From NCBI GenBank assembly GCA_001570385.1, contig BBYL01000036.1, positions 1 through 64,000 on the forward strand: a stretch of 64,000 bases of DNA, given 5' to 3'. Made by a program: the position numbers and the translations under genes. Every line of letters starts with the position of its first letter. Within the stretch, counting starts at the first letter, position 1. Shown here one piece after another: positions 46,594 to 50,823 of this stretch. Below the pieces are notes generated by a model. That model saw only the letters and a program-made list of their open reading frames with translations, had not been told where the DNA came from and did not search any database. This stretch comes from Microtetraspora glauca (lineage in GTDB: Bacteria; Actinomycetota; Actinomycetes; Streptosporangiales; Streptosporangiaceae).

Positions 46594-48585
46594 TCAGTTC
46601 TCCACCTCGGCGGCGGGTTCCGTGGTCGGGTCGAGCTCATGTGCCCGCGCCAGGTCGGCCTTCGCCTCGTCGAACCGGCCCAGGTCACGCAGGGCGATGG
46701 CCCGGTTGGCGTACAGCGCGGGGTCCTCCTCCAGCTCGATGGCCCGCGTCAGGTCCGCCACGGCGCCTTCGAGGTCACCGGTCTGGTAGCGCAGGATCCC
46801 CCGGTTCGCCCAGGCGCCACCGATCGCCGGATCCCGCGCCACCGCCGCGTCGAACGCCGCGCGCGCCTCGGCGTACCTCCCGGCGGCGGTCTCGATCTGG
46901 CCCAGCACGCCGTGCAGATGCGGGTTGCCGGGATCGATCTCCAGGCCGGCTTCGACGTCCCGCCGAGCCGCCTCGTGCTCGTCGAGCATCGCCAGGACAC
47001 CCGCGCGGTTCACGTAGGCGTCCAGGAAGACGGGGTCCAGCTCCAGCACGTGGTCCAGATCGGCGCGGGCACCATCCAGCTCGCCGCAGGACAGGTGCAG
47101 CTCGGCCCGGTTGTAGTACGCCTCCGGAAGGGGCGGGCTCACCCTGATCGCGGTCTCGTAGTCGGCGAGCGCGTCGTCCGGCCGGCCCATGGCGAGCAGC
47201 AGGTTGCCGCGGTCCAGGTAGTGGTCGGGGAAGCCGGGATCGATCGCGATGGCCCGATCGAAGTCCCGTAGAGCGTCGGCGTTCCGGCCGGACCGCGCCA
47301 GGAGCTGGGCCCGGTTGGCGAAGAGGACCATCCGGTGCAGGGGATGCGCCTCCGGCGGCAGATCCCGCTCGGCGAGTTCGATCGCCGACTCCACCAGGCG
47401 CATGGCCTCCTCGATCCGGCCCTGCCGCAGCTCGATCAGCGCGCGGCCGTTGCGGTCGAAGCCGAGCTTGAACGCCCTCTCCCGGCGATCGGGCAGCAGC
47501 GCCGACACCGCGATCGCCTCGTTGATCCACCCCGTGGCCCTGCCGAGGTCACGCCGTGCCGGGTCGGGGTCGCGCGCGTCGAGCATGGCCGTGCCGTACG
47601 CGGCCGCGGCGTGGACGGCGGGGTCCACGCTGGTCCGCCGGGCGGACTCGTAGAGCTCGAACGCCTCGTCGCGGCGGCCGAGCCCGGCCAGCGCGGTGGC
47701 CGTACGGTGGGTGAAACGCCACCAGAGGTCGGAACCCGGCGCGGCCAGGCGGAGCCCGCGCGGGCCGAGCTCGGCCACGGCGTGCAGGAACCCCTCGCCG
47801 ACGCAGTGGTCAACCGCCGCCCACAGCGCGGACACCGCGGCGTCCTGATCGCTTCCCCGTTCACGGTGGTACGGCACCGCACCCAGCAGGTGGTCGTCGG
47901 AGAGTTCGGCCGCCCTCCGATCGTGTGCCCTGGCCCGGTCGCTGGGTGGCAGCGCCAGATAGGCCGCGTACGCCTCCGGATCGTCCGTGGTGCCGTCCGA
48001 GGCGATGTAGTCCTCGGGCGGCCCGTCCACCGGAGGCGCGGCCCTCAGGACGAGTTCCTCGCTCCACCTGACGGGCGGCTCCGGAGCGCCGAGCGCCACG
48101 ACGAGGTCGGGGACCCTGCGCATGAGGACGGCCAGCAGTTCACGGTCGGTGGGGTCGGCCTCATGCATGTTGTCGACGCGCAGCGCGCCAGGCCCCTGCA
48201 GACAGTCCCTCACGAACTCGGCGATGCCGTTGGCGAGGCGCAGCGTCCGGCGGGGGGCGGGCACCAGGATCCGCTCGTCCTCGTGCAGGCGCGCGCCGAT
48301 GGACTCCTCGCGGGCCCGCACGAGTCGCCGCAGATCGGGAGCGACGGCCCGGATCTCTACGCTGTGCGCGGCCACCAGGTCCGGGAAACGCTCCAGCGCG
48401 GCCGGGACGAGTGCGCGCAGCACCACGCCACCGATGGTGTACGGCCCGCGCAGCCGTCGATGCCCGTTGATCACGGGCGCCACGGGCGAAGGCAGTTCCA
48501 GGGCCTGGAGGGCGGCCAGGCGATCGCGGGAAAGTGTCCCCCGAACCCAGATATGGCGGGAATTCCGCCGGGGGTTCCCCGTCAC
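46594..48585 (-). CDS. TPR-repeat protein with pseudo-ATPase N-terminal half
   Basis: 663 residues. Residues about 25-185 contain LRVDNMHEADPTDRELLAVL followed by DLVVALGAPE, which resembles the Walker B/sensor region of STAND or LuxR-type ATPases, yet no GxxxxGKS P-loop is present; GHRRLRGPYTIGG stands near where one would be expected. From about 280 on it is a superhelix of tetratricopeptide repeats (YYNRAELHLSCGELDGA and ALYANRAIALRDLGRFDEA are typical units). GTG 48585 overlaps the 24-residue peptide stop (GTGA). A frame from 48711 is longer but non-homologous. Function unknown; likely a peptide-binding scaffold (inference). Confidence 0.8.
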   Translation of the reverse strand: MTGNPRRNSRHIWVRGTLSRDRLAALQALELPSPVAPVINGHRRLRGPYTIGGVVLRALVPAALERFPDLVAAHSVEIRAVAPDLRRLVRAREESIGARLHEDERILVPAPRRTLRLANGIAEFVRDCLQGPGALRVDNMHEADPTDRELLAVLMRRVPDLVVALGAPEPPVRWSEELVLRAAPPVDGPPEDYIASDGTTDDPEAYAAYLALPPSDRARAHDRRAAELSDDHLLGAVPYHRERGSDQDAAVSALWAAVDHCVGEGFLHAVAELGPRGLRLAAPGSDLWWRFTHRTATALAGLGRRDEAFELYESARRTSVDPAVHAAAAYGTAMLDARDPDPARRDLGRATGWINEAIAVSALLPDRRERAFKLGFDRNGRALIELRQGRIEEAMRLVESAIELAERDLPPEAHPLHRMVLFANRAQLLARSGRNADALRDFDRAIAIDPGFPDHYLDRGNLLLAMGRPDDALADYETAIRVSPPLPEAYYNRAELHLSCGELDGARADLDHVLELDPVFLDAYVNRAGVLAMLDEHEAARRDVEAGLEIDPGNPHLHGVLGQIETAAGRYAEARAAFDAAVARDPAIGGAWANRGILRYQTGDLEGAVADLTRAIELEEDPALYANRAIALRDLGRFDEAKADLARAHELDPTTEPAAEVEN

Positions 48586-48656
48586 CCCTTGTGAATCACA
48601 CTCGACGTTCCGGTGAGCCGCACCGTGCCGGGCTTGCGGACAATGATCTTTTTCAT
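48582..48656 (-). CDS. 24-residue basic peptide coupled to a TPR protein
   Basis: The frame begins MKKIIVRKPGTV, continues with RLTG and ends SSVIHKG. It has four Lys, two Arg and no acidic residue. AGAGG lies 4 bases before the ATG, and the stop overlaps the GTG of the TPR gene by 4 bases, a strong sign of translation. It follows the GNAT gene by 71 bases, with a possible weak promoter (TTGCGG, 16 bases, AATACT). No known family. Options are a RiPP precursor, a signal peptide-like ligand of the TPR protein, or a regulatory leader peptide. Confidence 0.6.
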   Translation of the reverse strand: MKKIIVRKPGTVRLTGTSSVIHKG

Positions 48657-48727
48657 CGTGCCTCTTTTCCGTGACAAGGCACAAGTATTGGCACAAAACG
48701 GTAATCCGCAAGGCCCGGCAGGGTGGT

Positions 48728-49231
48728 TTATCTGATTAGTTGCGGCGAAACAACAGGAGTAAGGTATTTCTCTCCATAAAGCACCACGCTGCCGCCGCGA
48801 TCCTCACGCCGGACCTCGCGCCAGCCGTACTTCCGGTAGAGCTCGATGGCGGCGCCCTGTTGCAGGGTGGTATCCCCGCGCAGGAGGGAGTAGCCCAGCT
48901 CGCGGGCGCGTTCCTCCAGCCGTTCCAGGATCATCGCGCCGAATCCGCGGCGCTGGAACTCCGGATGGACCCGGAGCCGGCACATCTCCACGGTCTCGTC
49001 GTCGATGCGGCGCAGGCCGCCCATCGCGACGATCCGCCCGCCGGGCTCCTCGCCGACCAGGAACTCGCCCCGGTCGACGATGTACACCGCGTGGATTCGT
49101 GGGAAGTCGTCGTCGTAGTAGACGCCGTCACCCGGCGCCAGGCCGACCTGGGCGAGGCTGATCTGGTGCAACGCCCAGACCTCGTCCAGGTCGGACCAGC
49201 GGTATCGCCGGATCCGGAGCTTCCCCGTCAC
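48728..49231 (-). CDS. GNAT-family N-acetyltransferase
   Basis: 167 residues: a single GNAT domain with LRVHPEFQRRGFGAMILERLEE split at the acetyl-CoA loop (about 95-105), then LGYSLLRGDTTLQQGAAIELYRKYGW. GTG 49231 overlaps the XRE-TPR stop by 4 bases (GTGA), so both are translated together. Substrate unknown; it could modify the nearby peptide or a small molecule. Confidence 0.9.
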   Translation of the reverse strand: MTGKLRIRRYRWSDLDEVWALHQISLAQVGLAPGDGVYYDDDFPRIHAVYIVDRGEFLVGEEPGGRIVAMGGLRRIDDETVEMCRLRVHPEFQRRGFGAMILERLEERARELGYSLLRGDTTLQQGAAIELYRKYGWREVRREDRGGSVVLYGEKYLTPVVSPQLIR

Positions 49232-50823
49232 GTCTGCTGCCTGTCCTGCTCGGCGATCGTGGCGACCTCGCTCATGTCCAGCTGGGCGGGAAGGAGGCAT
49301 TCGCGGTACGAGGCCAGTGCGGGGCTCTCGCCGTACTTCGCCTGGACCGCCTTGAGCAGGTCGTACGCCGGGCGCATCACCAGCTCGGTGCGATAGTCCC
49401 GCTCGATCGCCTCGATGGCACTGCGGCCCATGTCGAGCGCCTCCTCGACCTCGCCCTCGATCAGGCGGCACTGGGCGCGGTCGAACCGGATCAGGGTCTG
49501 GTCGAGCAGGTCCTCACCGGAGTATTTGCCGAGCGCCTGCTCCAGGATGAGGTCGGCCTCCAGCGTCTGCCCCAGCTTGACCAGGACGTCGCCCTGGTAG
49601 AAGTAGAGCTGGCGCTCGGTGTAACCGAAGGCCGGGTCCTCCTGGTCGTTGCTGCTCATCTGCGCGAACGCCGACCTGGCCCGGGTGAGCGCCCGTTTGG
49701 CCTGGTCGACGACGTCCTTCTTCGCGCCGGTGCTGCCGGCCATCATGGCCAGTGCCCTGGCCTCGACGACCGGCGCCATCGTCCTTGCCGCGCAGGGGGT
49801 CTGCCCGGCCATGTCCCGGCTCTTCTTGGCCAGCGTGAGGGCCTCACGCGGGTCGCCGTAGTAGAGCGGGACCAGCGCCTCGCGAGCGGTCACCCAGGCG
49901 CGCAGCGCGCGGTCGCCCGTCTCGTCCGCGGCGGTGCGGCCGGTGCGGAAGAAGGACCGGGCCATGCGGTGGTCGCCCAGGTCGATCATGATCATGCCGC
50001 AGAGCCCGGAGAGCTGCGCCGTCATGCGGCACAGCCGTTCCTGCACGTCCACGGGCTGGCGCCGCTCCATCGCCTTGCGCACTGTGGAGTACTCCAGCAG
50101 CACGTCGCAGAGCAGGCGTAAGGGTGGCGTGTTCATGTACTGCCTGCCGAAGCCGGTGGTCGTTTGCTCCCACTGGTCCAGCATGGCGGGCGAGACGGAG
50201 GCCGAGGCCATCGTCTCGTCCATGTGCCGTCGAATGTTCTCCACCGCACCGAGCACCTGGTCGTTCAGCGTCACACCGCCGGTGCCGGCAAGGAGCTTCA
50301 GCAGCGTCCTCCGTAGCACGTTCTCGTCCTCCTCGCCCCCGTCCGCGGAAGGGCTGCCGCCGTCCGGCTGTATCCACAGCTCACGCACATTGGGGGAAGT
50401 GTCAGGTATTCCCTCTTCGAAGTCGCAGCCGCGGACCGTGCCGGGCATGCCGTGGCCGTGGCCACAGATGCACGGGCCCTCGTAGCCGAGAGCGGCCGGT
50501 TCCACCCGGTAGACGGAACACAGGTAGTGGAGGTACTCCGGGCCGGGCTTCTTCAGCCCCGACTCGTAGGCGGACAGAAGTGTCTCGCCGATCCCGGGGA
50601 CGGACTTGCCGTCCCGCTCGAAGAGCGCCCGTACCTGTTCGATCACATCCGCGAGTGCGATGCCGTTCGACAGGCGGTGCGCTTTGATCTTGGTCGTGCC
50701 GAACTTCGGTCCACACGCGATGTGGATCTCGTCGGCGATCAGAGCCAAGCCTCGCCCGGCGGCCAGGCCTCGGGCCCGGACCTGCCGTGCGATCTCTGTC
50801 TCCCTGTGCTGCCTGCCGGACAT
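49228..50823 (-). CDS. XRE-type regulator with TPR domain (NsdA-like)
   Basis: 531 residues. The N-terminal 110 residues form an atypical XRE helix-turn-helix (IGETLLSAYESGLKKPGPEYL is recognition-helix-like), followed by a Cys/His segment CICGHGHGMPG (about 121-131), a linker, and a C-terminal TPR-like repeat region (about 200-510). The layout matches the Streptomyces NsdA class of repressors of development and antibiotic production. ATG 50823 with GAGAGGGG upstream. First gene of a unit of four on the minus strand. Confidence 0.87.
   Translation of the reverse strand: MSGRQHRETEIARQVRARGLAAGRGLALIADEIHIACGPKFGTTKIKAHRLSNGIALADVIEQVRALFERDGKSVPGIGETLLSAYESGLKKPGPEYLHYLCSVYRVEPAALGYEGPCICGHGHGMPGTVRGCDFEEGIPDTSPNVRELWIQPDGGSPSADGGEEDENVLRRTLLKLLAGTGGVTLNDQVLGAVENIRRHMDETMASASVSPAMLDQWEQTTTGFGRQYMNTPPLRLLCDVLLEYSTVRKAMERRQPVDVQERLCRMTAQLSGLCGMIMIDLGDHRMARSFFRTGRTAADETGDRALRAWVTAREALVPLYYGDPREALTLAKKSRDMAGQTPCAARTMAPVVEARALAMMAGSTGAKKDVVDQAKRALTRARSAFAQMSSNDQEDPAFGYTERQLYFYQGDVLVKLGQTLEADLILEQALGKYSGEDLLDQTLIRFDRAQCRLIEGEVEEALDMGRSAIEAIERDYRTELVMRPAYDLLKAVQAKYGESPALASYRECLLPAQLDMSEVATIAEQDRQQT

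Follow-up and report, generated by a model that had tools for sequence, protein, structure and literature searches.

A conserved 24-codon peptide gene overlapping a TPR-protein gene in Microtetraspora glauca, and its relatives in actinomycetes

Introduction

Peptide-TPR systems of the RRNPP type have been described for Bacillota, to judge from the available parts of the sources (PMC10075063, PMC9765709), and actinobacterial signals are stated to be typically small molecules in the accessible portion of one of them (PMC10075063). For daptides, the sections at hand describe MpaP, a fusion of an RRE with a site-2 protease, as well as a leader motif (ELExMEAP) and a C-terminal Thr (PMC10036551). 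EpeP, TglG and TmoG are the M50 proteases of epipeptides and pearlins, according to the accessible part of PMC10885120. Neither 'M50' nor 'TPR' is mentioned in the part available of a source on RREs (PMC12710340).

The locus described here lies in a stretch of 64,000 nucleotides from Microtetraspora glauca, called the window in this text. It contains a 24-codon gene that overlaps the start of a gene for a large TPR protein. Genes of fewer than 30 codons usually fall under annotation limits, so that only the TPR gene of such a pair would be noticed, as an orphan. The 24-codon ORF is confirmed as a real gene. It is conserved within a family of soil bacteria, where its neighbour is nearly always the gene of one large helical-repeat protein. 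The elements of the pair are the following:

48582..48656, minus strand: 24-codon peptide gene, product MKKIIVRKPGTVRLTGTSSVIHKG, then TGA
48661..48665, minus strand: ribosome-binding site AGAGG, with a 4-nt spacer to the ATG
48582..48585, minus strand: GTGA overlap of the peptide stop TGA (48584-48582) with the TPR-gene start GTG (48585-48583)
46594..48585, minus strand: gene for a 663-residue TPR protein (Pfam TPR families), an N-terminal alpha/beta domain followed by a TPR superhelix

The peptide gene and its signals

Translation of the minus strand from 48656 to 48582 gives MKKIIVRKPGTVRLTGTSSVIHKG*, and the 5' flank of the gene reads GGAAAAGAGG-CACG-ATG, in which AGAGG occupies 48665-48661. 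The coordinates 48582-48656 given in a preliminary description of this DNA are thus exact, the strand, which had been left unstated, being minus. The ribosome-binding site announced there is this AGAGG, 4 nt 5' of the ATG, and the 4-base GTGA overlap with the next gene joins the peptide gene to the 663-residue ORF and is itself conserved. The lower local GC content also holds, with 0.56 for the 75 nt of the gene vs 0.694 for the window, a value as low being reached in 2.7% of 75-nt windows. Among the matches listed, a loose ribosome-binding pattern precedes 111 of the 120 pattern-found relatives (see below) that have enough upstream sequence.

The window peptide has a His at position 22, ends with Gly and contains neither Cys nor Tyr. 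No hydrophobic secretion stretch was seen by inspection of its 24 residues (no predictor was run), and five peptides of the family, scanned with Pfam and NCBIfam, matched no family there. A scan for sigma-70 promoters between 48560 and 48800 found none, and Rfam gave no match between 46000 and 51000. The sequence TTGTGCC occurs twice within the 71-nt gap (48657-48727) 5' of the peptide gene, and AATACTTGTGCC is seen again upstream in several relatives' loci; each could be a regulatory site.

Conservation and selection

At E<=0.01 the peptide matches 62 places in 48 of 198 genomes, its own included. In its own genome it matches a paralogue at E 1.4e-3, and the further peptide-TPR pairs there number two in all, MKKVVVHKPGTVQLSGQASAKHHA (contig C10) and MRKMTIRRKSTLRLLSGARRLWIEWCW (C8), each of which precedes a gene related to the window TPR gene. 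Stop codons or frameshifts in close relatives had been named beforehand as what would refute the gene. No stop lies inside the match at any of the 62 places, and there is one frame-broken copy (L094, genome G095), where the match is limited to residues 8-24, the first half is out of frame and the TPR gene was not found. Since this copy is broken and also without TPR gene, it is more likely a single decayed copy than an argument against the family.

In 35 distinct coding sequences ending in IHKG, diversity at codon positions 1, 2 and 3 is.14,.13 and.39, and it reaches.66 in the 75 nt upstream (ungapped) vs.21 within the gene. The sequences for this comparison and for the first dN/dS test were picked by their IHKG end, so that the amino acids of these four codons are fixed by construction. 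The corrected dN/dS is 0.18-0.20 (37 distinct IHKG-ending sequences), and codons 2-20, left free by the sampling, give a pN/pS of 0.31, corrected to 0.20, with the same number of sequences. When 24-residue ORFs are chosen by their first nine residues, codons 10-24 give 0.54, corrected to 0.40 (59 sequences, paralogues mixed), and His22 is present in 59/59. The comparison of dN/dS across homologues, proposed in the preliminary description as a check, thus yields a corrected value of about 0.2, which speaks for selection at the amino-acid level.

Of the 35 distinct IHKG-ending coding sequences, 34 have GGG as last codon and all have TGA as stop, and in the same set GGG is used for Gly10 in 3/33 and for Gly16 in 5/35 (Fisher p 1.9e-18 for the enrichment at the last codon, related sequences being treated as independent). 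Because GGG at codon 24 preserves the GTGA, both the translational coupling and the peptide sequence appear, from these sequence comparisons, to be under selection. The earlier claim of a genuine gene of fewer than 30 residues is therefore supported by the homologues in 48/198 genomes, the paralogues and the selection. The preliminary description was right about the reality of the gene, but it missed the paralogous pairs and the wider RRE-protease family, and it offered no function.

A wider peptide family

Loci found through related TPR genes gave peptides such as MKKIKIRKAGPVRLTAAACSIYKNVS, followed by a protein of about 420 residues and then by the TPR gene. The DNA pattern M-K-K-[IVM]-x-[IVM]-[RHQ]-K-[AP]-G-xxx-L-[TS] was then scanned over one genome per species, and returned at least 121 matches in at least 117 stretches. 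This is no census, and conservation at the pattern positions is by construction: 11 of the first 15 peptide positions are fixed or limited by the pattern, so that only positions 5 and 11-13 are free to show conservation. The 80 source titles among the matches listed are all actinomycetes.

Classified by the first peptide of each locus, the matches listed comprise 24 loci of the window type (IHKG), 14 of a KH type ([AP][KR]H) and 79 remaining ones. Cys and Tyr, which were not a selection criterion, occur in the core of 68/68 distinct peptides of this remainder (Cys/Tyr type) among the matches listed. Position 22 is Tyr in 49/68 of them and His in 22/22 distinct IHKG and KH peptides, within the same matches. 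Within the limit set by the pattern, the Cys/Tyr relatives listed have a constant leader and a variable core; they align to the window peptide without gaps. The C-terminal core of the window subtype is nearly fixed, even across genera. The start shared across the family is MKKIxVRKxGxVRLT. Having the conserved first half, and a TPR gene of the shared type linked to it, the window peptide meets the criteria for the family, and on this evidence from sequence it is assigned to a larger actinobacterial family of small peptides. This wider family is apparently undescribed. Its motif strings are absent from the literature searched, which leaves out most subscription journals, so absence from print is not shown.

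Some variants of these loci can be mentioned. Tandem precursors, in two or three copies, are present at L184, L219 and L265. A divergent third pair (L010, about 2144-2227, on contig C8 of the own genome; L106; L107; L108) has a shorter TPR protein and a peptide of the form M[RK]KMTxRRxxxLRLLSGARRLW[IF]EWCW (AVRLLSG in L107), whose aromatic C-terminus is almost fixed. The KH-type pairs L103, L109, L112 and L113 stand directly 3' of smc- and ftsY-like genes, named by eye.

Linkage to the TPR gene

By tblastn counts, a related TPR gene is found downstream at 55/62 peptide places. Seen from the TPR side, a family peptide is near 33/34 TPR places (31 by script, L021 and L108 by eye), the sole exception being L096 in genome G019. 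Loci picked by the peptide pattern alone and then filtered for at least 1.8 kb of downstream sequence have the TPR gene downstream, among the matches listed, in 21/21 IHKG, 11/13 KH and 56/56 Cys/Tyr cases. Without this room filter the figures for the matches listed are 24/24, 12/14 and 58/79, many stretches ending before the TPR position. The spacing between peptide and TPR gene ranges from overlap to more than 100 nt, and is about 1.4 kb where the protease gene intervenes.

The exceptions are of several kinds. G019 has a single peptide gene (L095), intact and with AGGAGG, without TPR gene downstream, and a single TPR gene (L096) without upstream peptide; these are the only ones found there. 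That this genome keeps both genes unlinked fits action in trans. A chance match had been considered for the G019 peptide (contig C7) and was ruled out, the peptide gene being intact. At L110, L187 and L241 the peptide lacks this TPR gene and lies 44-115 nt 3' of another gene, of the TPR_12 type, on the same strand; L110, at 44 nt, is one of the seven places without TPR gene in the 62, and L187 and L241 come from the pattern set. Another of the seven is L055, where the stretch stops at a contig edge 471 nt past the peptide. L114, L144, L155 and the frame-broken L094 have a peptide with no TPR gene found downstream. Three of these show an altered C-terminus or frame (IHTGWRAASD, IHEG, and a broken first half in L094), but L155 (RHTGG) departs little from the family, so that a dependence of the peptide's conservation on the TPR partner is only suggested by the sequences.

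The TPR partner

The model of the window TPR protein has a pLDDT of 94.7 and matches the superhelix of O-GlcNAc transferase (1w3b) with Z 21.6 and 6.1 A over 379 residues. The structural second look barely tested the N-terminal domain, for which Pfam gives AAA_16 at E 0.0057, below cut-off. In the GPYTxxG loop of this domain the would-be Walker A lysine is replaced by G, A or S in 42/42 rows. Of the 27 Pfam families matched by the protein, the 25 listed include no DNA-binding domain. The TPR part alone matched TIGR04510 ('peptide modification system cyclase') in NCBIfam; with E 1.6e-6 and 27 bits against a cut-off of 400, this assignment was rejected.

Several Asn residues are strongly conserved: Asn379, 424, 492 and 627 are invariant in 42 rows, Asn355 is present in 41/42 and Asn526 in 37/42. 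In the window model Asn492, 526 and 627 occupy position 6 of a first TPR helix, a position which we take to line the groove of O-GlcNAc transferase and to hold the peptide backbone there. As far as a model can tell, this pattern suits an extended peptide ligand, but it does not show one. TPR grooves with conserved Asn are common, and the pattern is partly a generic TPR feature and no proof of this ligand.

Neighbouring genes

Two further genes lie upstream of the pair:

48728..49231, minus strand: GNAT acetyltransferase, a conserved upstream neighbour of the window-type locus
49228..50823, minus strand: NsdA-family TPR-like regulatory protein, likewise a conserved neighbour and regarded as context (NCBIfam NF053720, E 1.1e-43, 150.3 bits vs cut-off 75)

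The GNAT cluster (C5) is found at 15 of at least 117 loci and the NsdA-like cluster (C2) at 19, all of the window type in both cases; an NsdA-like gene also lies about 6 kb from the KH locus L116. The GNAT gene is probably context and not part of the peptide-TPR pair. Elsewhere, an old-yellow-enzyme-like gene stands after or near the cassette in L083-L087 (Pfam was run on one), and among the matches listed flavin-reductase-like genes are near 12/79 Cys/Tyr loci and SARP-like regulators, recognised by eye, near 14/79.

The RRE-protease of the relatives

The protein of about 420 residues lies between peptide and TPR gene in 56/56 Cys/Tyr loci with room, among the matches listed, and in 76/79 such loci without the room filter. 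It is absent from all window-type (0/21) and KH (0/13) loci with room among these matches, and no RRE protein is encoded in the window locus. L092 was considered as a protease remnant and ruled out, the ORFs between its peptide and TPR gene being unrelated and on the opposite strand.

A model of the relatives' protein (pLDDT 87.8) has an N-terminus of three strands and three helices, and residues 1-75 match the leader-bound RREs of lasso peptides, TbiB1 (Z 9.2, 2.5 A) and TfuB1 (Z 8.6). The membrane part matches the site-2 proteases SpoIVFB (Z 7.2) and mjS2P (Z 5.1). HExxH is invariant in 17 protease rows, and there is also an invariant Asp-Gly motif. The protein is accordingly predicted, from models, to be a fusion of an RRE with a site-2-type protease. 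The RRE part of this prediction depends on a VIA-align second look at 75 residues. The scores of the protease half are within the range of common arrangements, and its reading leans on the HExxH and Asp-Gly motifs. Two proteins scanned gave no Pfam or NCBIfam match above cut-off, the weak profile matches being PqqD (NCBIfam, E 0.067) and, for one of the two, PF02163 (M50, E 0.066). A sequence search of the PDB returned a single weak match (TfuB1, E 0.68), and Foldseek with the whole model gave none at E<=0.001.

A ThiF-family gene (E 4.8e-49), a remote RRE-protease-like gene and an MFS-like gene (by eye) are grouped at L099:4064-10248, about 147-153 kb into contig C10 of the own genome. With an RRE-protease-like gene, if a remote one, next to a ThiF-like gene in this genome, the peptide could still be processed in trans. 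The KH-type pair L111 also has a ThiF-family gene (E 5.6e-44) and, by eye, an MFS-like gene nearby.

The TPR tree and the direction of change

The unrooted tree of TPR proteins has 78 rows; 4 of 65 rows were omitted for being shorter than 560 residues, and 17, the window included, were added by hand. The IHKG and KH rows, together with L092, form one protease-less clade (SH-aLRT support 100) among the Cys/Tyr rows, and the rows closest to the window are from Microtetraspora. Group C, also without protease, stands on a long branch apart from this clade, so that the protease may have been lost on two occasions. The families represented by Cys/Tyr rows are Streptomycetaceae, Micromonosporaceae, Pseudonocardiaceae, Nocardiaceae, Frankiaceae and Streptosporangiaceae; the IHKG and KH rows are from Streptosporangiaceae only. 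The simplest reading is a loss of the protease in a Streptosporangiaceae lineage, a direction that is inferred, the tree being unrooted.

Proposed function and alternatives

We put about an even chance on the following proposal: the peptide, which goes back to a precursor processed by a protease, acts inside the cell as a ligand or subunit of the TPR protein coupled to it. There are no data on binding, expression or translation. According to this proposal, the ancestral cassette would have encoded a peptide with a Cys/Tyr core, recognised by the RRE part of a fusion with a site-2-type protease. The lineage of the Streptosporangiaceae would have lost this protease and the Cys/Tyr residues and kept the TPR partner. 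The 24-residue peptide would now be translated first, the GTGA overlap coupling to it the translation of the TPR protein. Bound to its partner within the cell, the peptide would lie stretched out in the concave groove with its Asn lining, and act as an activating or inhibiting ligand or as a permanent subunit. Direct binding, the groove as its site and any effect on the partner are inferences, as is the absence of processing.

The features of the relatives could also indicate a RiPP precursor, whose first 15 or so residues would be a leader and whose C-terminal 9 or so a core, which enzymes from other loci of the genome would modify and release. The gap-free alignment to relatives whose first half is conserved and whose Cys/Tyr core varies (68/68 distinct, among the matches listed), the two or three tandem precursors of L184, L219 and L265, the predicted RRE-protease of the relatives, and the ThiF-family and MFS-transporter-like (by eye) genes near the KH-type L111 are in favour. 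However, the RRE-protease occurs in 0/21 window-type loci with room among the matches listed, and G036 has a window-type peptide but no RRE-protease match at E<=1e-30. The window subtype moreover lacks Cys and Tyr and hardly varies at its C-terminus, where a diversifying product would, and we consider this explanation unlikely. Export, re-import and sensing of the peptide by the TPR protein, as in RRNPP logic, would agree with the adjoining genes, which is the two-gene layout of RRNPP systems in the accessible parts of PMC10075063 and PMC9765709, with a site-2-type protease, the class of Eep, intervening in the relatives, and with SARP-type regulators (by eye) near 14/79 Cys/Tyr loci among the matches listed. 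It is hard to reconcile with 24 residues in which inspection finds no hydrophobic secretion stretch, with a C-terminus nearly invariant across genera, with the lack of a recognised exporter beside the window locus, and with the lack of a DNA-binding domain in the TPR protein, as far as the 25 listed of its 27 Pfam families show; such a signal seems quite improbable to us.

The retention of the GGG-TGA overlap in 34/35 sequences is what a cis-acting leader ORF would require, in which translation alone matters and loads ribosomes onto the TPR start codon. Selection, however, acts on the amino acids, and the peptide is retained about 1.4 kb from the TPR gene or with no TPR gene following, including the unlinked pair of G019, which leaves little room for this explanation. 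Short ORFs are common, but a chance ORF, already refuted by occurrence in 48/198 genomes, paralogues, selection and TPR linkage, deserves practically no credence. Whether the peptide signals to, switches or stabilises its partner is undecided; the product is functional and travels with TPR proteins, most likely as ligand or subunit.

Comparison with known systems

Somewhat tentatively, and with less than even confidence, we propose that Actinomycetota possess an undescribed ribosomal-peptide system made of a precursor of 24-37 residues (MKKIxVRKxGxVRLT and a Cys/Tyr core), an RRE-site-2 protease and a TPR protein of degenerate-STAND type. Streptosporangiaceae would have a simplified form with two genes, where the peptide stays uncut and serves as an inherent ligand of the TPR protein, so that a regulatory pair of peptide and TPR protein would exist beyond Bacillota. 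If true, protease-linked Cys/Tyr precursors and the bare two-gene module would be the ends of a natural series that allows the role of every part to be tested, and the sequence would give access to a sizeable set of small-precursor genes in Streptomyces and other antibiotic producers.

The NsdA-family protein encoded two genes upstream is not the partner of the peptide, which is a different protein. With daptides, as described in the available sections of their source, the relatives of the window peptide share short precursors, sometimes several, adjoining a predicted N-terminal RRE joined to an intramembrane site-2 protease. However, the window peptide has neither ELExMEAP nor a C-terminal Thr and starts with MKKIxVRKxGxVRLT, and no gene of the MpaB, MpaC, MpaD or MpaM type was recognised by eye in 26 neighbour clusters of at least 5 loci among the matches listed. 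The constant partner here is the TPR gene, and the window locus lacks the RRE-protease fusion. The M50 proteases of epipeptides and pearlins, so far as their source is accessible, are likewise membrane enzymes acting on a small ribosomal precursor, as is predicted for the relatives, but the relatives' enzyme bears a predicted RRE and the window locus has no such enzyme. From RRNPP systems, within the accessible parts of the sources, the window differs in that its peptide gene is upstream and overlapping and shows no secretion stretch, and in that its TPR protein has a different N-terminal domain, with no HTH found. It resembles them in its basic arrangement, a short peptide gene that adjoins the gene of a TPR protein.
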